Assembly: GCA_029242765.1 (NCBI GenBank)
Contig: JAQWTJ010000038.1
Span: 1-64,000 of the forward strand
Direction of reading: 5' to 3'
From: Flavobacteriales bacterium
GTDB lineage: Bacteria; Bacteroidota; Bacteroidia; Flavobacteriales_D; Sanyastnellaceae
Length of the DNA stretch: 64,000 nucleotides
The notes under the pieces are model-generated. The model did not search any database. It was not told where the DNA came from and saw only the letters and a program-made list of their open reading frames with translations. How positions within the stretch are numbered: the first letter of the stretch is position 1; each line of letters starts with the position of its first letter. The translations under genes and the position numbers were made by a program. Of this stretch, positions 15,279 to 46,504 are shown piece by piece.

Positions 15279-15650
15279 TCAAGCCGACCCCATAAGGCAG
15301 GCCATCACCTCAGGCTTGCGGCGCGTGGCCACGGGTACGCGCGCCCCGTCGCTCAGCACGACAATGCCGGCCCCAATTTTTCGCATCTCCCGGACAAAAG
15401 CCAAGTTCACCAGATGCTTCTGGTGGGTCCGCAAGAACCCGAACGCTCTCAGCTCCCGCTCAAAGGTCATCAAGCTTCGTGTCGCCAGCACGCTCTCACC
15501 GCCCACAAGATGCAGCAACGAATACGAGCCCTCCGACGCGACCCGCACGATTTCGCGGATCGGCAATAAGCGGACCCGATCCACCCCATTGATCGCTATC
15601 CGACCCTGAATATGTCCACATGCACACGCGCTCACACTCGGATGACGCAC
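15279..15650 (-). CDS. LytTR DNA-binding domain protein without a receiver domain (GTG start)
   Basis: DRVRLLPIREIVRVASEGSYSLLHLVGGESVLATRSLMTFERELRAFGFLRTHQKHLVNLAFVREM is typical LytTR. Confidence 0.82.
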   Translation of the reverse strand: MRHPSVSACACGHIQGRIAINGVDRVRLLPIREIVRVASEGSYSLLHLVGGESVLATRSLMTFERELRAFGFLRTHQKHLVNLAFVREMRKIGAGIVVLSDGARVPVATRRKPEVMACLMGSA

Positions 15651-20652: not shown

Positions 20653-21306
20653 TTACTTCTTATCGCCTTCGCCGCCTTCGCTACCTTCAGCGCCTTCGCT
20701 ACCTTCAGTGCCTTCGTCGCCTTCAGCACCCTCAACACCTTCCGCATTTTCTTCGGCCATAGCTGCACGCGTACGGCGTATGGCGATTACAACAGAGTCG
20801 TCGTTCAAAGGAATCGTGCAACCATCCACGCTAAGGTCGCTCACGCGAAGCGAGTCGCCTATTGCCAATTCGGTGATGTCCCCTTCGATGGAGTCTGGGA
20901 TTAGATCGGCGAGCCCCACCACTGGCAAGCGCCGGAAGATGGCATACAAACGCCCACCGTCTGAAACACCGACACTCTTGCCCACAGGGTGCACGGGGAT
21001 TTCCACGCGCACGGGCTTGTCGGCAAAGACCCGAAGTAGATCCACGTGCGTAATGCGGTCCGTGACAGGATGGAACTGCACGTCTTGGATGATGCAATCC
21101 ACAGTTTGATCGCCGAGTTCAAACGCCAGACGGTAGGTGTCCGGATTGAAAACAATCTTGTTTATAGCGTTTTCTTCTATGTGGAAGTGGAGTTGATCCT
21201 TGCCGCCGTACAATACGCCGGGGACACGCATTGCTGCACGCAATGCTTTTGCATCCTTCTTCCCTACGTTCTCTCGAGGAGAACCGCTCAATGATGCTGA
21301 CTTCAT
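20653..21306 (-). CDS. rplY: 50S ribosomal protein L25/Ctc with acidic Glu-Gly tail
   Basis: MKSASLSGSPRENVGKKDAKALRAAMRVPGVLYGGKDQLHFHIEE...; tail EGVEGAEGDEGTEGSEGAEGSEGGEGDKK. Confidence 0.95.
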   Translation of the reverse strand: MKSASLSGSPRENVGKKDAKALRAAMRVPGVLYGGKDQLHFHIEENAINKIVFNPDTYRLAFELGDQTVDCIIQDVQFHPVTDRITHVDLLRVFADKPVRVEIPVHPVGKSVGVSDGGRLYAIFRRLPVVGLADLIPDSIEGDITELAIGDSLRVSDLSVDGCTIPLNDDSVVIAIRRTRAAMAEENAEGVEGAEGDEGTEGSEGAEGSEGGEGDKK

Positions 21307-33116: not shown

Positions 33117-36100
33117 TTATTTCTGTATGACAAGTCTTTTTGTGATTTGATGCCCAGCGCCGCTGACGCGAACTTGATAAACGCCCGAAGGCAAGTCCTC
33201 GACCCAGATGTCGAGCAAATAGGTGTGGCCGGGTTCGGCCGACCCGCTGTACAGAGCTTCTGTACTGCGTCCGTCCATGCCTATCAGGTCGATGTTGACG
33301 CGCATGAGACGGTCGACTTCGAATCCGATGCGCGTGGTGCTGGATGCGGGGTTCGGGCTGAGTGAGGCCATGCGCACGGGCACGGTTTGCCCGTCGGAAA
33401 GTTCGGAATTGTCAGCCGTTGAGAAGCCAGCGTCGGGCTCCACGGGCGCTACACCTGCGTCCTCGCAGTCGCCGCCGTTGACTTCCACGCTGTGTTCAAA
33501 CGCAGCCACATTGCCAGAGCAATCTGTTGCCGTGTGCGTGTAACTCACTGTGTAGGGGAGCGCGCAATCCAACTCACCGAACAAGTCACCGCTGCCGTTG
33601 ATCGGCTCACCGTCAAATGTGCCCTCGTAGAAGAACCATCCGCTGTAGCCGTAGGCGTCGTTCATATTGTTGGCAGCAACGCCCACTTGGAATCCATAGA
33701 ATAAGTTGGCCGGTTGATGGCTAAGCGTCATCTCACTACCGGCATATTCGCCCCATCCGCTCAGCGTTCCGCTGCTCAAAATCCAGTACATCCAGTCTTC
33801 ATGTAAATCGGGTAAATCCTCGCAGTCTTGCTTGAAGTCCGTCTCGAAAGGCTGGGTGTCCCAAGCATTCCAATCCATTCCGCCGGTGAGTAAGACCTCG
33901 ATATCGAAGCCCGCTGCCGGGTTTTCTAGGCTGGCCACAGTTTGCGTAATCGTCCATGATCCGTCGGCCATTTGGCTGACTATGCCTTCGCCCACGCTCA
34001 CATAAAATTCATCGCCGGCGAAGTTGAACATCCGCATGTCGTGCGGGTCGTAGCCGGTGCAGGTCATGCCGCCTTCCCACGCTTCGGGCGTTGCAGTAGC
34101 GCAGAATTGGGTGACGCTGTCGTTCGGGGCAAATCCACCTTCAAAGCTTGCACTCCAGGCCAATTCCACCTCGCCTCCGCAACCGTCTTCAGCTGCCGTT
34201 TCACAGAACCCAGGGAACTCAGGGGTCTCTCCCGTATAGTCTTCGCCACAGTAGGTTGTCAACGCGCCATCAGCCAGATCACAGGTCGACGTCCACGCAG
34301 GCGCTGTCGTGTCGTTGACCGTGATGGTGACGGTTTGCACTGCGGAGTTGCCACAGCCGTCCGTCGCCGAGAAGCCATACGCCACGACGCTATTGCCACA
34401 ACCGTCTGATGACAAGGTGTCGATCCAGGCCGCCAGCACAGGCTCGGCATCGCATCCGTCTGTGGCCGTGGCCACAAGCTGTGGCACATCAGCCGCACAG
34501 ACCACGCTCATATCTCCGAAATTCAGGCTCAACTCAGGCGCCGTTATATCCTCCACGCTCAGCACTTGTGTCCAGTCGCTTGTGTTTCCGGCGCAGTCGC
34601 TCGCTTGCCAAACACGCGTCACCGTCCAGCTCTGCGGGCAATCGCCCTCGGAACTCGTCTCGCCTACAAATTCAATCGTTACCGCCCCGCTGCAATTGTC
34701 TGTTGCTTCCAAAGCCTCCAAACCAGCGGGTTCGGGCACCTCGTCGCAAGCCACCACCGCATCGGCGGGTCCGCTTATAAACTGAGGCGCAACTTCGTCC
34801 GTCACCTCGATCAATTGCACATGCGTCACCGCATTGGCCGAACAATCTTCAGCCGTCCAAACACGCGTGATTGTGAACTCGCTTGGGCAATCTCCAAGGC
34901 CGCTGGTGTCGGCAGAAAAGCTCACAGCCACCGCTCCGGAACACGCATCGGAAGCAGTCAACACCTCCACCACAGGCACCGCGTCACAGCTTACCGTTAA
35001 GTCCTCGGGCAAGCCCTCCACAAAGGCGGGTCCCACCGTATCCACCACGTTAATCGTTTGGGAGGCGCTGGCTGTATTGCCACAATTATCTTCAGCCGTC
35101 CACGTCCGCACCACGGTCATCACACCATCGCAGGATCCCGGCTCTACAGCGTCGGTGTACTCGACCTCAACATTGCCATCGCACAGGTCTTCAGCCGCAG
35201 CCTCCCCCGTGAATTCTGGCGCAACATCATCTCCGCACTGCAATGTCAAATCGGTCGGAACTTCTGTAAATACTGGAGCAGTCGTGTCAATCAATGTGAT
35301 GTTCTGTATCATCTCAGTGCTGTTTCCACAACCGTCGGTGGCGGTGTACGTCACCAAGTAAGAGGCCACGCACGAACCGCTGAACGGCATCAGGTCGTCC
35401 ATCACAATATCCACTTCTCCACCGCAGGGGTCGTAGGCCGTCACGTACACGGCACTTTCGTCCCACAATTCGCATGACAATTCTATTTCCATGGCGCCCT
35501 CAAATACAGGGGCACTGTCGTCAATTACATTCACGACTTGCTCGTGCTGCACGGCATTGCCGGCGCAGTCGATAGCACTCCAAGAGCGCGTAATTACCTC
35601 CGTGTCGCCGCAGTCTCCTGGGGTGGACCATTGGTAGAATACAATTTCTGCAGTGGGGTCGCAGAGCTCGAAGATGGCCATTTCGGCCGGTTCGGGGATG
35701 GACAAGCAGCTCACCGTTGTATCGGCTGGCAGGGCCGTAGTGAACACCGGCGCCACCGTGTCGATCACCGTCACAACTTGCGCGTGCGAAATCCCATTTC
35801 CACATGCATCGCTCACCATCCAGCTGCGCAACAGCGTGTACTCGCCGGCGCACTCGCCGCCTATGGTCTCTTCATCAAAGAGCACTTCAATGTCCGCATC
35901 GCAGCCGTCCACAGCCTCTAAAATGTCAGCTGCAGGCACGCTGCCGCAAGCCACGGTAGTATCTGCAGGCAGCGTCTCGATTTCAACCGTCCAAACGGGG
36001 GCAATCGTGTCGCTTACACTGACCAGTTGTGCGCAGGAGATGCTTGTAAAATTGTCACACATATCCATTGCCGTGGCAGTGAACGTCCGGATGAAGCTGT

Positions 36101-39100
36101 AGCTACCGGCGCAGTCAGCACTGACCAATTCGTCGTAATAGCTGTAGCTTGTTTCAAGGTCCTCGTCGCAGTTGTCGCTATAAATCACCAGCGCCTCACC
36201 AAGGGTTGCCACGGTAGTATCTGCAAAACAATTCGCATCGGCATAGAGCGCCAAATCGTCGGGGCAGACCAGCGTAATTATAGGTGCCACCGTGTCGATT
36301 ACGTTGATGATTTGTGTGTAGTGGCTTGAATTACCGCAGTTGTCATAGGCGTCGTACTCACGCAACCATGTGCCAGCGCACGAGGCGCTCACAGGGTAGG
36401 CTGCGGTGATGACAATCTGCACATTGCTATCGCAGCCGTCGCTTGCGGTCAAGGCGTAGACACTGTCCGGGCTGAAAATGTCGCAGGCCACAAAGGTGTT
36501 GAACTCGCCTTCAAAGACGGGCGCCGTGATGTCTAGAGCGGTGATGGTCTGCACGCAGCTGACCGTGTCACCGAGGTTGCCACAGCCGTCCACCGACGTG
36601 GCGTAGAAGGTGCGTTCGAAGGTGAAGCTGCCCTGGTCGCCGCCGTCCTCGCCCTCACAGAGCATGGTCGAATCACTGTCTTGGTACCACCATGAAGTGC
36701 CCGTTGCTGGGTCGCAGGCATCCAATGCGCTCACAGCCGGCGAGCCGAGGGCGTCGTAGCTCAAGTCGGCGCTGCAATTTGCGTCGAGTGAAACCGTCGT
36801 GTCCGGTGGGCAAACCACTGAAGTCACAGGCCCTGTTATATCGATTACCGTGATGGTCATATCACAGCTGGTCGTGTCAGTGTTTCCGCAATGGTCTGTG
36901 GCCACCGCTGTAAACGTGCGCACCAAGGTGTACTCGCCAATGCATCCAGGCAACGGCAATCCGTCTTCGAATGTGATTTCAATCGCCGGCTCATCGACCC
37001 CGCAATTGTCCGTAGCTGAGACTTCGGCCCAACCCAGAAGGTCCACACTGAGGTCGGTCATGCAGTCGGCATCGACCACCAGCACCGTGTCGGCAAGGCA
37101 TTCGATGGACACCACAGGGGGCGTCTCGTCATAGAGTTCAAGGTATTGTTCGAAAGACCCTGCGTTTCCACAGTCATCAGTGAAAGTGTACTCGCGCAAT
37201 ACGAGTCCAAAGGGCTGCACGCATCCGCCAGAAAACGGCGTATCCGTCCAAATCAAGTCCACTTCACCACCGCAGCCGTCCTCGACGGAAATCAAAGCGG
37301 GTGCGCTGTTGTCGCTTGTGTATTCCTCGCAAGCCAGGGTATACGGAGTCACCCCGTCAACAACATACGGTGCGTTGAGGTCCACGACGGTCACGGTCTG
37401 TTGCACGGGCAAGGTGTTGCCGCAGTCGTCCACAAAGGTGTAGGTTCGGTCGACTTTGAAGCTGCCCGCACACTCTACGGCGTAGACGCTGTCCTCGACC
37501 CAGCTGAAGGCCACGTCCGAGTCGGTGTTGTCCGAGGCGGTCCATTCCGTGTACGCCGTGCTAGGATCGTATACTTCGCAGGTCACCACCGAGTCGGTCA
37601 AGGTCGCCACAGGGGCCACCGTATCTAACAGGTTCACCAGCTGATCGCACGAGCTGCTGTTGCCACATTCGTCCGTTACGGTGAAGGTCCGCGTGAAGGT
37701 CAAAGTGCCTTCGGGTGTAAGGTCGTCTCCATCGCAGGCCACCACAAAGTCGCTGTCGATATGGTCGATGACCAAGGCTTCGAGTCCGGCACAATTATCA
37801 CTCACCTCCGGCATACCCAAGGCCACCGTTGTTGTGTCATCGTTGGGGTTCTCGTCGAGATAAATTTCAATGTCGGCCGGGCATTCAATGCCAGGGGCCG
37901 TCGTGTCGATTAGCACCACTTCTTGGTCGAAGGTTGCGCTGTTTCCGCAGTCGTCAGTGATGGTCCAGCTGCGCATCCATGTGCCGGGGCATGACCCTGT
38001 GCCCTCGACGGCTACCGCAGAAACGCTGACCGCCACGTCGTCGTCGCAGCTGTCACCGAAATCCAATGCAACCAAGCTTGGATCCGTCGGATCGTAGAGC
38101 AGTTCACAAGAAACCGTCACCGAGCTGTCTGCATCGATGAACACCGGTGCCGTTTGGTCGAGCACTTCGACGGTCTGCACACATGTAATGGTATCGCCCA
38201 CGTTGCCACAGTCGTCCATAGCATACGCGTAAAACGTCCGCTCAAAAGTGTAGCTTCCTTGGGTCTGGGCGTCGTCCCCGGTGCACGAATATGCAGCCGG
38301 TCCGTCGATGTGGAAAAGGGACACGTCCGGCGCGCTGTCGCAGCCGTCTTCGGCCGCTCCTGAAGCGTCGCCTAATGCGTCCAGGCTCAAGTTCACCTCG
38401 CAAGCAGCATCGAGCACCACGGTCGTGTCAACCGGGCAGTCGATGGACACCATCTCGGGGGCTGTCACGTCCAAGACTGTGATGAGCACGGAGCAGGTTT
38501 CAGTCGCTGTATTGCCGCAGTGATCAAGCGATGAGGCCGTCCAAGTGCGCGTCACTTCAAAGGATCCCTCCCCGGTTTCACAAAGCCAATTGGGTTCAGA
38601 ATCCACCACATCCACCTCCAGAGAGGGGGCCGCGTCGCAATTGTCGCTCACGCTGACTTGCACAGGCGCCAGCGCGGATTCACTCCAGTCCGCCTCGCAA
38701 AATGCATCGAGAAGTACGGTCGTATCGGGTGGGCACACCAACGAAATCTCAGGTGAAACACTATCGATCAGTGCTATGAATTGGCTCTCGAGCGCGGTGT
38801 TGCCACAGGCGTCCACCACGGTGTACACCACGTTGAAAGTGGGAGCGGGCGTTACGCAGCCACCGGACATGCCGTAGCACGTGGCGTAGGCCGTGTCAAT
38901 CACGCAGTTGTCGGCGTAAGTCAGGATGCCGTACTCGACGAGTTGGTCGATATCGCAGACCCATTGGTCGCAGGCTAGTTCGGCTTCCACATCGCTCAAA
39001 CCAATACTAGGGGCGATGATGTCCTGTACATACAAATACTGTGTTCCGCTGGCTTCGCTGACGTTGCCGCACGAGTCGGAGACAGTCACGGTCCAAACGC

Positions 39101-42100
39101 GTTCGGTGGTGAAGCATCCGCTGGAGACGCTGTCCACAGTGAAATCTTCGTAGACCAATTCAGTCCCATTCAGCACGCAATTGTCGCTTGCCTCAAATGT
39201 GGCATATCCCGTCATATCGGGGTCATTGAACACACCGCACAACGCGTTGACATTCAACGTCACGTCGCCTGGAATTTCGATGCTCACCTGGGGGGCAATA
39301 CTGTCGACAATTTGCAGCGTCTGCGTGCAGTAGGCGATATTGCCAAAGAGGTCTTCTGCCTGCCACCGGCGCTCAAGTGTGTAACAGCTCGTGGCGTCGA
39401 ATGCGACTTCGAACTCGCCCAAATATGAAATTTCCGGGCTCCCGGCATCGTCGCAATTGTCCTGGGCTTCGACCCAGCCCAACACGGGCAAGTCCTCCCC
39501 GCAAGCCAGTACAGTATCGCTGGGGCATGCCGTGAAGACGGGTGCCGTCGTGTCGAGGCGGCAAACTTGTTGCTCGTAGGTGTAGACGCCACAGCTGTCG
39601 CCAAAGACCGTGTAAATATTTGTCAGACAAGCCTCAGGCCCTTCGTTGGGCACGTCAGTCAACGTCACGTCGGCAATTACATCGCCCATCGAGCCCATCA
39701 CAGGCGTCCCGCCAATTTGTCCGCTCCAGTTGAACCAGCCGCCTATGCCCGTGTTGCAGTTGTGGTCATTGGCACTTTCACCCACTTGGAAACCGAAGTA
39801 CTGGGAAACAGGAGCGTGGCCCACGTGCAGCAAGCTGCCTTCGTATTCGCCAAGGCCGTGCAGATAGCTTTGGTCGCCCTGCAAGATGTAAATCGTCCAA
39901 TCCTCGAACGGGATAGAGTCGCAAGCGAAAAGGTGCTTGTATCCGCGCCCCAGATCGCCCCAGGTTCCGCCGTCCATACCGTCTTCAAAGACGTAGAACA
40001 CTTGCCAGCGCTGGTTGGGGTTGAGTTCGTTGGCGATTTCGCCTTCGAGCACGGCCGTTCCGTTGTCGTATTGTGTGAAGCTCAGCCCATCACCCACCTC
40101 CAAGAAGAAGTCTGATGCGGCAAAGCCCAGCATGGCCAATCCGTAGATTCGGATCACTGCATCAGGGCCATTGCCCATGGCCGTGGTGGCCGTTCCAATG
40201 GTGTAGCCCTCGAGATTGGGCGCAGAGTAGCAACCCCAATCTAGGGTGTCTTCCGTGCAGTTGTTCACCACGGTGATGTCGTCGCAGCCCAGCCCCTCAA
40301 AGTCCTCCAAGCATTCGAGCGTATAGTCCTCGATGCCCGGTGTGATCACCAAGCATTCCGGATCGCAAGGGTCGAGCCCCAGCGTATTGCCATTGCAGTC
40401 GAAGCCCGCCTCAGCGTACTCACAGCTGCCGTCGTCATCGCTCGCCTCATCGTTGTAGTTGCAAGCCTCAGTGTCGGTGCAACCTTCAATTTCATCGCCG
40501 TCGCATACCCCGTCGCCATCGGCGTCTTCCAAGCACGCGCCGTCGCAGTCGTATCCGGCCTCAGCGTACGTGCATTCGCCGCTGTCAATGGATGCTTCCA
40601 CATTAAAGTTGCAGGCCAATTCATCCATGCACCCAGCACAACTTGTGTACTCACAGCTCGCGTCGTCGTCGGTCGCCGCCTCATCAAAGTTGCACGCTGC
40701 GGTGTCGGTGCAACCTTCAATTTCATCGCCGTCGCATACCCCGTCGCCATCGGCATCATTTAAGCACGCGCCGTCGCAGTCGTATCCAGCTTCAGCGTAT
40801 GTGCATTCACCGTTGTCAATGGATGCTTCCATATTAAAGTTGCAGGCCAATTCATCCATGCACCCTTCACAACTTGCGTACTCACAGCTCGCGTCGTCGT
40901 CGGTTGCTGATTCATCAAAGTTGCACGCCGCGCTGTCAGTGCAGCCCAAGATTTCATCTTCGTCGCATACCCCATCGGCATCGGCATCATTTAAGCACGC
41001 GCCGTCGCAGTCGTATCCGACCTCGGCGTATTGGCATCCGCCGCCATCGATTGTTGCTTCAAGGTCGAAGTTGCATGCGCCGGGATCTATACAACCTGCA
41101 CAGCTTTCATATTCGCATGAGCCGTCATCCAAGGCGGCCTCGCTGTCGTAGTTGCAGGCCAGTGCGTCCATGCACCCAGCGCAGCTGGTAAATTCGCAGT
41201 CGCCGCTGTCCAAAGTCGCCGTCTCGTCAAAATTGCACGCCAGCGCATCCATACAACCGGCACAGCTTTCAAAGTCACACGTCCCGTCGTTATCCGTCGC
41301 CGTTGCGTTGTAGTTGCAAGCCTCGATTTCCGTGCAGCCTTCAATCTCGTCTTCGTCGCAAATTCCGTCTCCATCAGCGTCTTCCAAACACGCACCGTCG
41401 CAATCATAACCGACGTCCGCATAGGTGCAGTCTTCGTTGTCCAGGTTGGCAGTATTGTCGAAATTACAGGCGGATTCATCCATGCACCCCCACAGAGGAT
41501 TGCACAGGGCGTCGAAGGCCAATGGCGTCTCATAGCTTCCCCAAGACTCGCCTTCTGAGGAAATCTGAACTTCCCATAATACAAGGCATTCATTGCACGT
41601 GGCGGGGTTGAAAATACTGAACTCCACCGTCTCGCCGGCCTCCGCATACACAGATATATTCACGTAAGCAGTGCCCTCAAACATAAAGGGCTCGGCCACT
41701 CCACGGGTCTGCCCGTCGACGCGAGCCAGCACCCAAATATCATTGGAAGTCGCCCCGTCAAAGCTCACCGTTGCGATGAAAGTCGCAGGAATGATGGGCA
41801 ACACTTCAGCTGTCAAATCCGGCTCCAAACAAGGGTCGTCTCCGTCGCAAATTCCATCCCCGTCGGCGTCCTCGAGGCAGTCGCCCTGGCAGTCGTACCC
41901 CACCTCAGCGAACGTGCAGCTTCCGTCATCTATCGTGGCAATTGCATCGAAGTTGCAGGCCTGTGTATCGGTGCAGCCCGTCAATGATCCGGCGCACAAG
42001 GCGTCGATGGCCGCCGGTTCAGCAAAGCTCCCCAGCTCGGCGCCGAGCGACCAAACGGTGGTGGTGGCTCCCGCCGCCTCGCAGTCCTCACAAGTCGCCT

Positions 42101-43493
42101 CGCGGAATACAGAAAAACTCACCTGGTCGCCCGTTTCGGCGTAGATAGCCAAGTTCACGAAGGCCTCACCCTCGAACTCAAATGTTTGGCCTGCTCCCCG
42201 AACCTGTCCGTCCACGCGGGCTATTACGGTGGCGTCAAAGGCCGGCTGACTATCGTAGCTCACCTGAGCGATCATTGTCGCTGGAATAATTGGCAGCACT
42301 TCGGCGTCGGTGCTTGGGCCCAAGCACGGGTCCACGTCGTCGCACACCCCGTCACCATCTTCGTCGGCGAAGCAATCGCCACCACAAACACCTAACACGT
42401 CTTCGCTTGCACAGGAGCCGTCGTCATCTGTGGCGCTGTTGTCGTAGTTGCAGGCTAGCACGTCGGTGCAACCTTCAATCTCGTCTTCGTCGCAAATCTC
42501 GTCTTCGTCCGCATCGTTCAAGCACACTCCGTCGCAATCGTAGCCCATCTCGGCAAACGTGCAAGTCCCGTTGTCGTCTGTGGCGCTGCCGTCGAAGTTG
42601 CAGGCCAGTACATCGGTGCAACCCGCGATTTCGTCTTCGTCGCATATGTCATCGTCATCTGCGTCATTGAAGCACACGCCGTCGCAGTCCACAGCTGTGC
42701 TTCCATACATATCCATAGGGTACTCGCAAGTGCCGTCATCTTCAGTAGCATCTAGATTGAAGTTGCACGCCTGATTGTCCGTGCAGCCTGGCGTGGATTC
42801 ATCGGGGCCGAAGAAGAAGGTGTCGCGAAATTCAGTGGTGCCCAATCCGTTGATGAACACTTGGGTGTAGAGTTGGCCGCTGATATCTCCGTCGGTCGTG
42901 AATTGACCCACCAAGATGCGGAGGGCGGCTCCTGGCACGCCGTTGGAATCGCCGTTGAGCGCGTACCATGCGCCGCCGATGGGGTCGTCGATGGCGATGC
43001 TAGCACCGGCCGTCCCGAAACCGGGGTCGAACACCGTAGCCCAAGGGTTGCCGGTGCTTTGAACTGTTGAAATGTTGGCTTCTCCAGCTGCGGCATTGGC
43101 GGGCCCCTCAAGCCCGATAGTGACATAGCTGTCGTATTGAAGATCCGGGTAAACCGGGAAGAGCAAGGGGTTTGAATTGCTGGCCGTGAGTCCTCCGATC
43201 GCGGCGTGATGGAATGCAGTGGTGGTGTAGACGTACGTCGGGTTGAGCACGTCACCTGAAATGGATGACAGGAAATCGTCTTCATTGACAAGCTCGATGT
43301 AGAGTCGGTAACAAGCGTAACCGGTGAGGTCGACCGTTCCGGTCACCCCGACCAATAGGCCAATGTCAGCTGAAACAGTGTCCACAGACAACTCATAGCC
43401 CTCAGGGGCCGTGTTGCTGTTAATGTACTGCGCACTGACCGTTGGGACGATGCACAAGAGCATCATGATCCCAGTGAGGAATAGGCGTTGCAT
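33117..43493 (-). CDS. Giant (~3,458 aa) secreted adhesin-like protein with GCTD/TSP3-like repeats, HYR-like repeats and T9SS type A sorting domain
   Basis: Signal MQRLFLTGIMMLLCIVPTVSAQ; ~14 GCTDxxACNF repeats; ~21 D(T/I)(T/V)APVF...C HYR-like units; C-terminus SLSPNPASSTTRIGFEVDRLMRVNIDLIGMDGRSTEALYSG...LDIWVEDLPSGVYQVRVSGAGHQITKRLVIQK. Start at ATG 43493; the ORF track start at 43685 is upstream extension. Confidence 0.92.
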   Translation of the reverse strand: MQRLFLTGIMMLLCIVPTVSAQYINSNTAPEGYELSVDTVSADIGLLVGVTGTVDLTGYACYRLYIELVNEDDFLSSISGDVLNPTYVYTTTAFHHAAIGGLTASNSNPLLFPVYPDLQYDSYVTIGLEGPANAAAGEANISTVQSTGNPWATVFDPGFGTAGASIAIDDPIGGAWYALNGDSNGVPGAALRILVGQFTTDGDISGQLYTQVFINGLGTTEFRDTFFFGPDESTPGCTDNQACNFNLDATEDDGTCEYPMDMYGSTAVDCDGVCFNDADDDDICDEDEIAGCTDVLACNFDGSATDDNGTCTFAEMGYDCDGVCLNDADEDEICDEDEIEGCTDVLACNYDNSATDDDGSCASEDVLGVCGGDCFADEDGDGVCDDVDPCLGPSTDAEVLPIIPATMIAQVSYDSQPAFDATVIARVDGQVRGAGQTFEFEGEAFVNLAIYAETGDQVSFSVFREATCEDCEAAGATTTVWSLGAELGSFAEPAAIDALCAGSLTGCTDTQACNFDAIATIDDGSCTFAEVGYDCQGDCLEDADGDGICDGDDPCLEPDLTAEVLPIIPATFIATVSFDGATSNDIWVLARVDGQTRGVAEPFMFEGTAYVNISVYAEAGETVEFSIFNPATCNECLVLWEVQISSEGESWGSYETPLAFDALCNPLWGCMDESACNFDNTANLDNEDCTYADVGYDCDGACLEDADGDGICDEDEIEGCTEIEACNYNATATDNDGTCDFESCAGCMDALACNFDETATLDSGDCEFTSCAGCMDALACNYDSEAALDDGSCEYESCAGCIDPGACNFDLEATIDGGGCQYAEVGYDCDGACLNDADADGVCDEDEILGCTDSAACNFDESATDDDASCEYASCEGCMDELACNFNMEASIDNGECTYAEAGYDCDGACLNDADGDGVCDGDEIEGCTDTAACNFDEAATDDDASCEYTSCAGCMDELACNFNVEASIDSGECTYAEAGYDCDGACLEDADGDGVCDGDEIEGCTDTEACNYNDEASDDDGSCEYAEAGFDCNGNTLGLDPCDPECLVITPGIEDYTLECLEDFEGLGCDDITVVNNCTEDTLDWGCYSAPNLEGYTIGTATTAMGNGPDAVIRIYGLAMLGFAASDFFLEVGDGLSFTQYDNGTAVLEGEIANELNPNQRWQVFYVFEDGMDGGTWGDLGRGYKHLFACDSIPFEDWTIYILQGDQSYLHGLGEYEGSLLHVGHAPVSQYFGFQVGESANDHNCNTGIGGWFNWSGQIGGTPVMGSMGDVIADVTLTDVPNEGPEACLTNIYTVFGDSCGVYTYEQQVCRLDTTAPVFTACPSDTVLACGEDLPVLGWVEAQDNCDDAGSPEISYLGEFEVAFDATSCYTLERRWQAEDLFGNIAYCTQTLQIVDSIAPQVSIEIPGDVTLNVNALCGVFNDPDMTGYATFEASDNCVLNGTELVYEDFTVDSVSSGCFTTERVWTVTVSDSCGNVSEASGTQYLYVQDIIAPSIGLSDVEAELACDQWVCDIDQLVEYGILTYADNCVIDTAYATCYGMSGGCVTPAPTFNVVYTVVDACGNTALESQFIALIDSVSPEISLVCPPDTTVLLDAFCEADWSESALAPVQVSVSDNCDAAPSLEVDVVDSEPNWLCETGEGSFEVTRTWTASSLDHCGNTATETCSVLITVLDVTAPEMVSIDCPVDTTVVLDAACEVNLSLDALGDASGAAEDGCDSAPDVSLFHIDGPAAYSCTGDDAQTQGSYTFERTFYAYAMDDCGNVGDTITCVQTVEVLDQTAPVFIDADSSVTVSCELLYDPTDPSLVALDFGDSCDDDVAVSVSAVAVEGTGSCPGTWMRSWTITDDCGNSATFDQEVVLIDTTAPGIECPADIEIYLDENPNDDTTTVALGMPEVSDNCAGLEALVIDHIDSDFVVACDGDDLTPEGTLTFTRTFTVTDECGNSSSCDQLVNLLDTVAPVATLTDSVVTCEVYDPSTAYTEWTASDNTDSDVAFSWVEDSVYAVECAGSFKVDRTYTFVDDCGNTLPVQQTVTVVDLNAPYVVDGVTPYTLACEEYTSDNSAPALISVEDGCGGEVDLIWTDTPFSGGCVQPFGLVLREYTFTDDCGNAGSFEQYLELYDETPPVVSIECLADTVLVVDADCMTDLSVDLLGWAEVSATDNCGVDEPAIEITFEDGLPLPGCIGEYTLVRTFTAVATDHCGNTDTTSCDMTITVIDITGPVTSVVCPPDTTVSLDANCSADLSYDALGSPAVSALDACDPATGTSWWYQDSDSTMLCEGEDGGDQGSFTFERTFYATSVDGCGNLGDTVSCVQTITALDITAPVFEGEFNTFVACDIFSPDSVYALTASDGCDSNVQIVITAAYPVSASCAGTWLREYDAYDNCGNSSHYTQIINVIDTVAPIITLVCPDDLALYADANCFADTTVATLGEALVIYSDNCDEDLETSYSYYDELVSADCAGSYSFIRTFTATAMDMCDNFTSISCAQLVSVSDTIAPVWTVEIETLPADTTVACGSVPAADILEAVDGCDADIEVLFDEETIGGECAGEYTLLRSWMVSDACGNGISHAQVVTVIDTVAPVFTTALPADTTVSCLSIPEPAEMAIFELCDPTAEIVFYQWSTPGDCGDTEVITRSWSAIDCAGNAVQHEQVVNVIDDSAPVFEGAMEIELSCELWDESAVYVTAYDPCGGEVDIVMDDLMPFSGSCVASYLVTYTATDGCGNSTEMIQNITLIDTTAPVFTEVPTDLTLQCGDDVAPEFTGEAAAEDLCDGNVEVEYTDAVEPGSCDGVMTVVRTWTAEDNCGNTASASQTINVVDTVGPAFVEGLPEDLTVSCDAVPVVEVLTASDACSGAVAVSFSADTSGLGDCPSEFTITRVWTAEDCSANAVTHVQLIEVTDEVAPQFISGPADAVVACDEVPEPAGLEALEATDNCSGAVTIEFVGETSSEGDCPQSWTVTRVWQASDCAGNTSDWTQVLSVEDITAPELSLNFGDMSVVCAADVPQLVATATDGCDAEPVLAAWIDTLSSDGCGNSVVAYGFSATDGCGNSAVQTVTITVNDTTAPAWTSTCDLADGALTTYCGEDYTGETPEFPGFCETAAEDGCGGEVELAWSASFEGGFAPNDSVTQFCATATPEAWEGGMTCTGYDPHDMRMFNFAGDEFYVSVGEGIVSQMADGSWTITQTVASLENPAAGFDIEVLLTGGMDWNAWDTQPFETDFKQDCEDLPDLHEDWMYWILSSGTLSGWGEYAGSEMTLSHQPANLFYGFQVGVAANNMNDAYGYSGWFFYEGTFDGEPINGSGDLFGELDCALPYTVSYTHTATDCSGNVAAFEHSVEVNGGDCEDAGVAPVEPDAGFSTADNSELSDGQTVPVRMASLSPNPASSTTRIGFEVDRLMRVNIDLIGMDGRSTEALYSGSAEPGHTYLLDIWVEDLPSGVYQVRVSGAGHQITKRLVIQK
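34240..39560 (-). repeat. HYR-like domain array (~21 copies) within the giant adhesin
   Basis: Units beginning DTTAPVFTACPSDTVLACG, DTVAPIITLVCPDDLALYAD, DTTAPVFTEVPTDLTLQCG, DTVGPAFVEGLPEDLTVSCD and similar. Confidence 0.8.
40395..42788 (-). repeat. GCTDxxACNFxxxATxDDGSC / DxDGDGxCDxDE repeat array (~14 copies)
   Basis: Counted in the translation; includes near-identical 231-bp tandem units at 40471-40932. Confidence 0.85.
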
Positions 43494-43553
43494 TGCAGTG
43501 ATATAGGTGGGCTCAGGTGAGATATGCATGGATAAGCTCTGCAAAGATGGTGA

Positions 43554-43586
43554 ATAATGCTCGATAAAACAAGCATAATGCTCGAT
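43554..43586. promoter_or_regulatory. Perfect 12-bp direct repeat (ATAATGCTCGAT) at 21-bp spacing upstream of the adhesin gene
   Basis: Copies at 43554-43565 and 43575-43586, 5 bp upstream of a CATCTTTG box (43542-43549, minus strand). Confidence 0.5.
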
Positions 43587-43724
43587 GAAGGTGTCATTGG
43601 CGTCGACGAACGAGCTAAACCGCACAATGCATCCCCGCGCAATGCCGCTTAGAATGCGGGACGCGCAGCTTGAGCCCCAGTTCAAGGACTTTTCAAAAAA
43701 CTTACAGAAAAGCTATCGCGGCGA

Positions 43725-46469
43725 TCAGACCACAATGTTGACGATTCGCCCGGGGACGACGATCACCTTTTTGGGCCTGTTGCCCTCAAGCTGAGCGGCA
43801 GCTCGTGCATCGCCCAGCGCAGCCGCCTCAACATCGGACGGCGACATATCGGCCGCCACCATCAACTCAAAACGCACCTTGCCGTTGAACGACACCGGGT
43901 AGGTTACCTCAGCCTCCACCAAATGAGCGGCATCGAAAACCGGCCACGGCGCGTCGCACACGCTACCCTTCTTGCCGAGTAGCGACCACAAATCCTCAGC
44001 AAGATGCGGGGCATACGGCGAGAGTAAGACGGCCAACGGCTCGAGCAGTTCGCGCTGATGGGCGTCTTGTGCTGTGAGCTCGTTCACTCCGATCATCATC
44101 GCAGAAACCACCGTATTCCAGCTCAAGCGGTCCAGATCTTTTGACACTTTTTTGATGGTCTTGTGCACGGTGCGCAGGCCGTCAGCGGCAGGTGCGGAAT
44201 CCACCACGAGGCAGGCGCCATCTTGATCGCGGTACAGCCGCGCGAGTTTGCGTAGGAAATTGTGCACCCCGCTGATGCCTTTTGTGTCCCAGGGTTTGGC
44301 CTGCTCCAGAGGCCCCAAGAACATTTCGTAACAGCGCAGCGTGTCCGCTCCATAGCGCTCAACCAAGTCGTCGGGGTTTTCCACATTGAACTTCGACTTG
44401 GACATCTTCTCGACTTCAGACCCGCAGCGGTAGCTACCGTCTTCACTCAGCTCAAACGTCGCATTGGCATACTCGGGGCGCCAATTCTTGAAGGCCTCGG
44501 TGTCCAACACATCGCCGTCCACAAGTGACACGTCCACATGCAAGCGCTGGGTCTTGAACTCTTTCCTCCGGTCAAAACTCACAAAACACGGCCCGCCTTC
44601 GATGCGGTAGACAAAGCTGCTCCGCCCCAAAATCATCCCCTGATTGACCAACTTTTTGAACGGCTCATGAAAGCCAATCAAGCCCCTGTCAAACAAAAAC
44701 TTTGTCCAGAAACGACTGTAGAGCAAATGGCCTGTGCCGTGTTCGGCACCGCCGATGTACAGGTCGACTTGGCCCCAGTAGTCGCTCTTGCTGCGATCGC
44801 AAAAGGCCGCGTTGTTCGCAGGGTCCATGTAGCGCAAGAAATACCAACTGCTGCCCGCCCAACCTGGCATGGTGTTGTACTCCATGCGTTCGCCTGTGGG
44901 CACACTCCACCGGGTGGCTCTGGCCAGGGGCGGGTCGCCGTCGGCTGTCGGCAAGTATTCATCTACTTCAGGCAGGACCACTTGGCCATCTTCTACAAGC
45001 TGTGGAATCCCGTCTTTGTATCGAATAGGGAAGGGTTCACCCCAATAGCGTTGCCGGCTGAACACGGCATCGCGCAGGCGATAATTCACTCGGGCTTCGG
45101 CCGCCCCCTTTTCTTCGAGCAGCTCAATTGCTATGGCCATTGCATCCTTTGCCGCCAATCCATCCAGCGCCCCACTGTTCATGAGTACGGCTGATTTGTC
45201 CACGGTTGCACCTTCACCGGTGTCGTGCCCCTCAAAGATGGCTGGAATCGGAAGATTAAAGTGCTGAGCAAAAGCCCAGTCCCGGTCATCGCCAGCGGGC
45301 ACAGCCATCACAGCCCCTGTTCCATACCCGGCCAGCACGTAATCTGCCGCCCAAACCGGCAGCTGCTCCCCGCTGATCGGTGAGACGGCATAAGCCCCAG
45401 TGAACACCCCGCTGATTCCCCGCTCCCCGCTCATTCGCTCGCGCTCGGAAGCCGCCCCCGCCTGCTCGCAGTACGCCTCCACCTTTTTGCGCATTTCCTC
45501 GGTGGTAATCTGCTTCACCAGGTCGTGCTCGGGCGCAAGCACAATAAAACTCGCCCCGTAAATCGTGTCGGGCCGCGTCGAAAAGACTTCAATTTTCAAG
45601 GGGTTGCCGGCTTCCCTCGTGCCGGCCACCTCAAAGCGGATGCTCGCGCCGGTTGACTTCCCAATCCAATTGCGCTGAATTTCCACAATCGAGCTGGGCC
45701 AATCCACCGTGTCTAAGTCGTCAATCAAGCGGTCAGCATACGCCGTGATGCGCATGATCCACTGGCGCATGGTCTTCTGTTCCACGGCGTGCCCGCCGCG
45801 CTCGCTTCGTCCGCCCGAAATTTCGTCGTTTGCCAAGACGGTGCCCAACGCCGGGCACCAATTGACCTGAGAATCTGCCAAATAGGCAAGTCGGTGCTCC
45901 ATCAGCACGGTGCTCTTCTGCCCCTCGTCCATCGTCGCCCATGCCTTGTCCTCACGCTCAAAGCGTGCGACCAGCTCAGCGATCGGGCGGGCACCTCCGG
46001 CCTCCACATCATACCAACTCTGGTAGAGCAGCCCGAAAATCCACTGGGTCCATTTGTAGTATGCGGGGTCGCTGGTGCGCACCTCCCGCGACCAGTCGAA
46101 GCTGAAGCCCAACAAGTCCATTTGCTGGCGGTAGCGCGCAATGTTCGTCTCCGTGGTCACCGCCGGGTGCTGACCCGTTTGGATTGCGTACTGCTCGGCG
46201 GGCAGCCCGAAGCTGTCGTATCCCATAGGGTGCAGCACATTGTAGCCCTGATGCCGCTTGTAGCGCGCAATCACATCCGATGCGATGTAGCCCAACGGAT
46301 GCCCCACATGCAGCCCAGCCCCTGAAGGGTAGGGGAACATATCTAAGGCGTAAAACTTCTTTTTCGGCGTGCCATCAGGGGCCAAAGCGCCTTCGGTCAC
46401 ACGGTAGGTCTCGTCTTCATTCCAACGCTTGCGTTGGGCCGTTTCAATCGAGAGAAAATCGTATTCCAT
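43725..46469 (-). CDS. leuS: Leucyl-tRNA synthetase
   Basis: FYALDMFPYPSGAGLHVGHPLGYIASD...MSKSKFNVENPDDLVERYGADTLRCYEMFLGP. Confidence 0.97.
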   Translation of the reverse strand: MEYDFLSIETAQRKRWNEDETYRVTEGALAPDGTPKKKFYALDMFPYPSGAGLHVGHPLGYIASDVIARYKRHQGYNVLHPMGYDSFGLPAEQYAIQTGQHPAVTTETNIARYRQQMDLLGFSFDWSREVRTSDPAYYKWTQWIFGLLYQSWYDVEAGGARPIAELVARFEREDKAWATMDEGQKSTVLMEHRLAYLADSQVNWCPALGTVLANDEISGGRSERGGHAVEQKTMRQWIMRITAYADRLIDDLDTVDWPSSIVEIQRNWIGKSTGASIRFEVAGTREAGNPLKIEVFSTRPDTIYGASFIVLAPEHDLVKQITTEEMRKKVEAYCEQAGAASERERMSGERGISGVFTGAYAVSPISGEQLPVWAADYVLAGYGTGAVMAVPAGDDRDWAFAQHFNLPIPAIFEGHDTGEGATVDKSAVLMNSGALDGLAAKDAMAIAIELLEEKGAAEARVNYRLRDAVFSRQRYWGEPFPIRYKDGIPQLVEDGQVVLPEVDEYLPTADGDPPLARATRWSVPTGERMEYNTMPGWAGSSWYFLRYMDPANNAAFCDRSKSDYWGQVDLYIGGAEHGTGHLLYSRFWTKFLFDRGLIGFHEPFKKLVNQGMILGRSSFVYRIEGGPCFVSFDRRKEFKTQRLHVDVSLVDGDVLDTEAFKNWRPEYANATFELSEDGSYRCGSEVEKMSKSKFNVENPDDLVERYGADTLRCYEMFLGPLEQAKPWDTKGISGVHNFLRKLARLYRDQDGACLVVDSAPAADGLRTVHKTIKKVSKDLDRLSWNTVVSAMMIGVNELTAQDAHQRELLEPLAVLLSPYAPHLAEDLWSLLGKKGSVCDAPWPVFDAAHLVEAEVTYPVSFNGKVRFELMVAADMSPSDVEAAALGDARAAAQLEGNRPKKVIVVPGRIVNIVV

Positions 46470-46496
46470 GGCGCTGGGAGTCTTGCCGAAGCGCCG

Positions 46497-46504
46497 CAAA
46501 TTTA
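46497..46504 (-). promoter_or_regulatory. Candidate -7 box TAAATTTG upstream of leuS
   Basis: Exact TAnnTTTG match 27 nt from the leuS ATG. Confidence 0.45.

Follow-up and report, generated by a model that had tools for sequence, protein, structure and literature searches.

A 21-bp-phased repeat before an adhesin gene probably marks a control circuit common to the cell-surface proteins of an uncultured flavobacterial family

How is a gene for a secreted adhesin of several thousand residues switched on and off? To our knowledge, the transcription factors that govern the many large secreted adhesins of the Bacteroidota are little known. The family considered here is represented by assembled genomes only. 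The question is raised by the window, a stretch of 64,000 nucleotides from a 2.2-Mb Flavobacteriales genome assembled in 110 contigs, in which the 231-bp intergenic region between leuS and such an adhesin gene contains a perfect direct repeat:

33117 to 43493, minus strand: adhesin, the target gene, 3458 aa, with a signal peptide and HYR_4C domains
43725 to 46499, minus strand: leuS, the upstream neighbour of the adhesin
43554 to 43586, plus strand: perfect 12-bp direct repeat ATAATGCTCGAT, with copies at 43554-43565 and 43575-43586, including the TCGAT part of the units U1 and U2 listed further below

The best start codon of the adhesin is 43493-43491, opening on the signal peptide MQRLFLTGIMMLLCIVPTVSA, and its C-terminal stretch matches Por_Secre_tail, the sorting tail of the type IX secretion system (T9SS), with a score below the curated cut-off. 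By the relatives of its leuS, the genome belongs among Flavobacteriales-like Bacteroidota. The leuS-adhesin gene order is kept in 13 of 16 congeners. The N-terminal domain of the adhesin is common to a very large paralogous family, with 44-89 matches per genome in this genome and its genus. Two similar exact repeats, one with 18-bp spacing within a coding frame at 20673-20709 and one at 42477-42509 within the adhesin gene, probably reflect protein repeats.

A first, sequence-only reading of this DNA had pointed to the 12-mer pair with its 21-bp period, to a promoter-like box beside it, and to a distance of about 60-90 bp from the ATG. All are indeed there: the two copies of ATAATGCTCGAT are exact and 21 bp apart, they lie 61-93 bp upstream of the best start codon, and the box CAAAGATG (minus strand CATCTTTG) is found at 43542-43549. 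Taken as a plain repeat, the 12-mer pair is no more than mildly unusual. Dinucleotide shuffling of the intergenic region produces an exact 12-mer repeat within 60 bp in 20 of 20,000 cases, shuffling of the window's non-coding part does so in 8 of 300 (2.7%), and a shuffled 64-kb window contains about 0.18 such repeats. The 33-bp repeat (43554 to 43586) is unique within its genome and its exact form is species-specific; the exact pair was not found in 16 congeners, even allowing three mismatches. Lone near-matches of the 12-mer in its own genome fell mostly in coding-like sequence and formed no pattern, and with the complete intergenic region as a nucleotide query, congeners gave only short chance matches. 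Since the exact pair is absent from the congeners, a refutation test built on the 12-mer motif would have misled.

The element that persists between species is a different one. Octamers resembling TCGAYGAA, 21 bp apart, occur in the adhesin promoters of congeners, both orthologous and paralogous, and a motif, TCGAYRAA-N13-TCGAYRAA, was derived from these relatives' promoters with the window left out. Base counts by position give an 8-bp core, TCGAYRAA, adjoined by A/T, with an AT-rich spacer. In a search of 17 genomes this motif had two mismatch-free matches in the window, both on the plus strand (43561-43589 and 43582-43610), so that the site consists of three units in and around the adhesin promoter:

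43561 to 43568, plus strand: operator unit U1, TCGATAAA, which reads TTTATCGA on the strand of the adhesin and is flanked by the -33 and -7 boxes
43582 to 43589, plus strand: operator unit U2, TCGATGAA, upstream of the -33 TTG with 9 bp between them, and 21 bp from U1
43603 to 43610, plus strand: operator unit U3, TCGACGAA, 21 bp from U2
43570 to 43572, minus strand: TTG, the -33 element of the adhesin promoter, lying between U1 and U2
43542 to 43549, minus strand: -7 box CATCTTTG, 20 bp from the TTG (Bacteroidota consensus TAnnTTTG)
43537, minus strand: predicted transcription start, placed from a box at -12 to -5

The period of 21 bp had thus been seen correctly, whereas the repeating unit is not a 12-mer in two copies but TCGAYRAA/TTYRTCGA in three. 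The 12-mer spans half of units 1 and 2, its other half, ATAATGC, falls outside the conserved motif, and the third unit at 43603-43610 had been overlooked. Chance falls far short of explaining three perfect TCGAYRAA units phased at 21 bp. The whole 2.2-Mb genome holds three perfect motif pairs, two of which make up the window site (the other lies at C92:1410). The octamer occurs 44 times in 238 kb of sampled stretches of this genome, and only the window units form pairs spaced 8-60 bp; a perfect 21-bp pair appeared in none of 40,000 shuffles. Bare TCGA is not enriched in non-coding DNA, and a literature search for the motif found nothing relevant.

The promoter is the best conserved part of the region. 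In all 14 orthologous promoters, the window included, TTG is followed after exactly 20 bp by [CG]AT[AC]TT[TCA]G, and outside this block the orthologous intergenic regions are nearly unalignable; the promoter-like box is thereby borne out. The sigma-A promoter of Bacteroidota has its -7 box at -12 to -5, with the consensus TAnnTTTG (PMC9723704), and TTG-N20-CATCTTTG fits the arrangement of a TTG some 20 bp upstream of such a box near a gene start. Transcription starting near 43537, as this position of the box predicts, would give a leader of about 44 nt. The literal pattern TTG-N19-21-TAnnTTTG, scanned over 238 kb, proved too strict, giving two matches, neither near a gene start. Among paralogous adhesin genes, a strongly conserved 5' leader (...GGAACCAAATCACTTGTGATG) lies about 100 nt after TATAATTCGACGAA (loci L138, L140, L144, L152, L222, L228, L230, L240, L246 and L255); a structured leader was considered and rejected, as folding of these paralogue leaders found no conserved RNA fold.

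Conservation upstream of orthologues, the check that had been proposed for the repeat, fails for the exact 12-mer pair and holds for the 21-bp-phased operator. When 13 orthologous promoters, without the window, were compared with shifted copies of themselves, an analysis free of any motif, 21 bp gave the highest similarity of all shifts from 12 to 44. Scored with the motif, 19 adhesin promoters reach at least 14/16 at lag 21 and at most 4 do so at any other lag, an enrichment that is not independent, the motif core having been refined on the same promoters; less affected by this refinement are the motif-free analysis, the 17-genome search and the AT-tract counts by genus and family given below. 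U1 keeps its position in 9 of the 14 orthologous promoters, its TCGA ending 9-11 bp before the -7 box, and a clear U1 is absent from the other five. In most leuS-adhesin orthologues the unit pair points toward the promoter, in the orientation opposite to that of the window, and in the five measured it ends 11 bp above the -33 TTG. In most congeners U1 lies 29-30 bp from this opposite-oriented upstream pair, so that the exact layout is not fixed. The window, congener G007 and promoters of further genera have units that point away from the gene. In G007 the same three-unit array recurs with a 2-bp shift (-51/-30/-9 from the box, compared with -53/-32/-11 in the window). In the window and in other genera the units straddle the TTG, the nearest ending 7-11 bp before the -7 box; upstream of adhesin-like genes of other genera, straddling is seen at L371, L374-L378 and L382-L384. 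Triples phased at 21 bp occur elsewhere too, for example in G087, G082 and G060.

How far does the arrangement extend? Counted over all spacers, the 21-bp spacing gives about 116 matches against 66 for an 18-bp control, and with AT-rich, non-coding-like spacers 64 against 14. Once an AT tract is added to the pattern, 57 matches are obtained in the genus against 1 for the reversed control; over the 114 genomes of the GTDB family the corresponding counts are 235 and 24, with matches in 16 of 21 genera, genus and family being used here as labels of kinship. Few or no sites were counted in genera g4, g13, g19 and g10. The same-face 21-bp arrangement is thus upheld by orthologues and by genome- and family-wide searches alike. 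Because some loci had been fetched for their adhesins, the subset fetched by motif only is reported separately: 58 of its 71 sites are intergenic, and a signal-peptide-like gene start adjoins 34 of 46 intergenic loci, compared with 45% of random intergenic positions in this crude test. Some matches lie inside genes or adjoin genes without signal peptides. The targets listed, as judged from automatic ORF calls, comprise at least adhesins resembling that of the window, further secreted proteins with repeats and an OmpA-like protein, and several genera add a DUF6272 gene. The window site has all that marks this set of sites, namely a motif match, the 21-bp phase, an intergenic position and a place upstream of a secreted-protein gene. 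Of the dedicated adhesin operator suggested from the window, a putative operator at the adhesin promoter stands, backed by orthologues and by the genome and family searches; its exclusive dedication does not, as the element is common to other secreted-protein genes. Genes for DUF6272 proteins (SiaB-like, PF19788; two were tested) have the operator 35-43 bp upstream in several genera (L260, L356, L358 and L370), a placement hinting at a link of the regulon to partner-switch signalling.

What, then, do the units represent? A functionless origin of the direct repeat, by chance or by local slippage, is hardly credible: the species-specific exact 12-mer pair and the 2.7% of shuffled non-coding sets containing such a repeat would suit it, but a motif that was defined in other species matches the site perfectly three times, phasing and placement are conserved, and the 17-genome search, the octamer counts over 238 kb and the shuffles already contradict it. 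Nor does it seem at all probable that the units are parts of a promoter for an alternative sigma factor. In 9 of 14 orthologues U1 keeps a near-fixed distance from the -7 box, as it would in such a promoter; yet units are found in either orientation and as triples, their distances from gene starts vary, and there is a normal TTG/TAnnTTTG promoter besides. For asymmetric units that follow one another head to tail along one face of the DNA, the best explanation is a transcription factor that binds cooperatively. To which family would it belong? OmpR-type regulators, one of the suggestions first made for this repeat, use repeats of about 10-11 bp and fit poorly, since the units recur at lags of 21 and 42 bp only, with none at 10-11 bp. 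AraC/XylS sites repeat about every 21 bp, and a factor of this type, or another helix-turn-helix protein, might read the repeats and repress by occlusion where they overlap the promoter. The spacing agrees, as does the position of U1 between -33 and -7 in the window and in other genera; what is conserved, however, is an 8-bp core with an AT-rich spacer rather than the 15-17 bp half-site placed near -35 by AraC/XylS proteins, and we consider this option unlikely.

Recognition of the LytTR type is possible in general, and a LytTR-domain protein, two or three monomers of which would bind in head-to-tail order and activate transcription from a position some 10 bp upstream of -33, may be put forward as a tentative candidate by analogy. 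In LytTR sites, direct repeats of 9 bp are separated by 12 bp, hence a period of 21 bp, and lie about 10 bp upstream of the -35 element (PMC6193735). The start-to-start distances of 21 and 21 bp fall within the 20-22 bp or so of such sites, and the distance of the pair to the TTG is exactly 11 bp in five congeners and 9 bp for U2 in the window. LytTR genes are present in 17 of 17 genomes, with one to five in every congener and a receiver-LytTR protein in 15 of the 17. Against this, the half-site TCGAYRAA departs from the ACCNCTTA-type consensus and its GTT core (sequences in PMC6193735), the LytTR genes examined carry 3-mismatch sites only and no well-matching operator, and at many sites, as with U1 here, a unit sits inside the core promoter. 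The window itself encodes a short LytTR-domain protein lacking a receiver (15279-15650), to which the repeat had speculatively been linked. With only about 21% identity to the LytTR proteins retrieved from congeners, it is a poor candidate for an operator found genus- and family-wide; having no close relatives among those LytTR genes, it was rejected as the regulator.

We favour a reading of the site, drawn from sequence comparison, as very likely a three-unit operator through which one factor serves a family-wide set of genes for secreted and surface proteins; that a protein binds the units, and that a single factor reads all sites, is what we infer. The factor would bind asymmetric TCGAYRAA half-sites head to tail on one DNA face, one every two helical turns (21 bp). 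Acting on a housekeeping promoter of the Bacteroidota kind, TTG-N20-CATCTTTG, it would control the T9SS-type adhesin gene; U1 lies within the core of this promoter, and U2-U3 sit immediately upstream of -33. As a working model, U2-U3, whose edge lies 9 bp above -33, would serve activation, while additional occupancy of U1 would block RNA polymerase. The same factor would control secreted- and surface-protein genes throughout the family: as the same 21-bp switch site stands before genes for secreted surface proteins across it, the repeat probably marks a control circuit that the cell-surface proteins of this uncultured flavobacterial family share. We lean, with some reserve, towards calling this a new family-wide regulon, in which a single factor, recognizing a new sequence (TCGAYRAA every 21 bp), would coordinate surface adhesins together with other secreted proteins throughout an uncultured Flavobacteriales family, in a conserved layout that has the core promoter embedded in the operator, and in which the DUF6272 (SiaB-like) gene may provide a coupling to partner-switch signalling. 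With a defined operator and a list of target promoters, the regulator could be found by DNA pull-down or DAP-seq, and the operator could serve as a marker for surface proteins that are switched together.

Set beside known systems, the site resembles LytTR operators (AgrA, ComE, HdrR/BrsR, LRS) in its head-to-tail 21-bp period, its AT-rich gap and, in several orthologues, a pair ending about 10 bp upstream of -33/-35, and differs from them in having TCGAYRAA instead of a ACCNCTTA-like half-site, an extra unit in the core promoter and both orientations in use. With AraC/XylS operators (araI, Pm) it shares direct repeats of about 21 bp adjoining or overlapping the promoter, but the half-site here has 8 bp in place of 15-17 and comes in three phased units. 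The promoter is like that of Bacteroidota sigma-A in its TTG-N20-CATCTTTG before the adhesin, although its -7 box starts with C or G where TAnnTTTG has T. In Flavobacterium, SprB-type adhesins are controlled from sigma-54 and SM5 promoters (PMC9723704). Both cases would have dedicated transcriptional control of a secreted adhesin in common; Flavobacterium relies on alternative sigma factors, whereas here a putative operator would act on a promoter of the sigma-A type.
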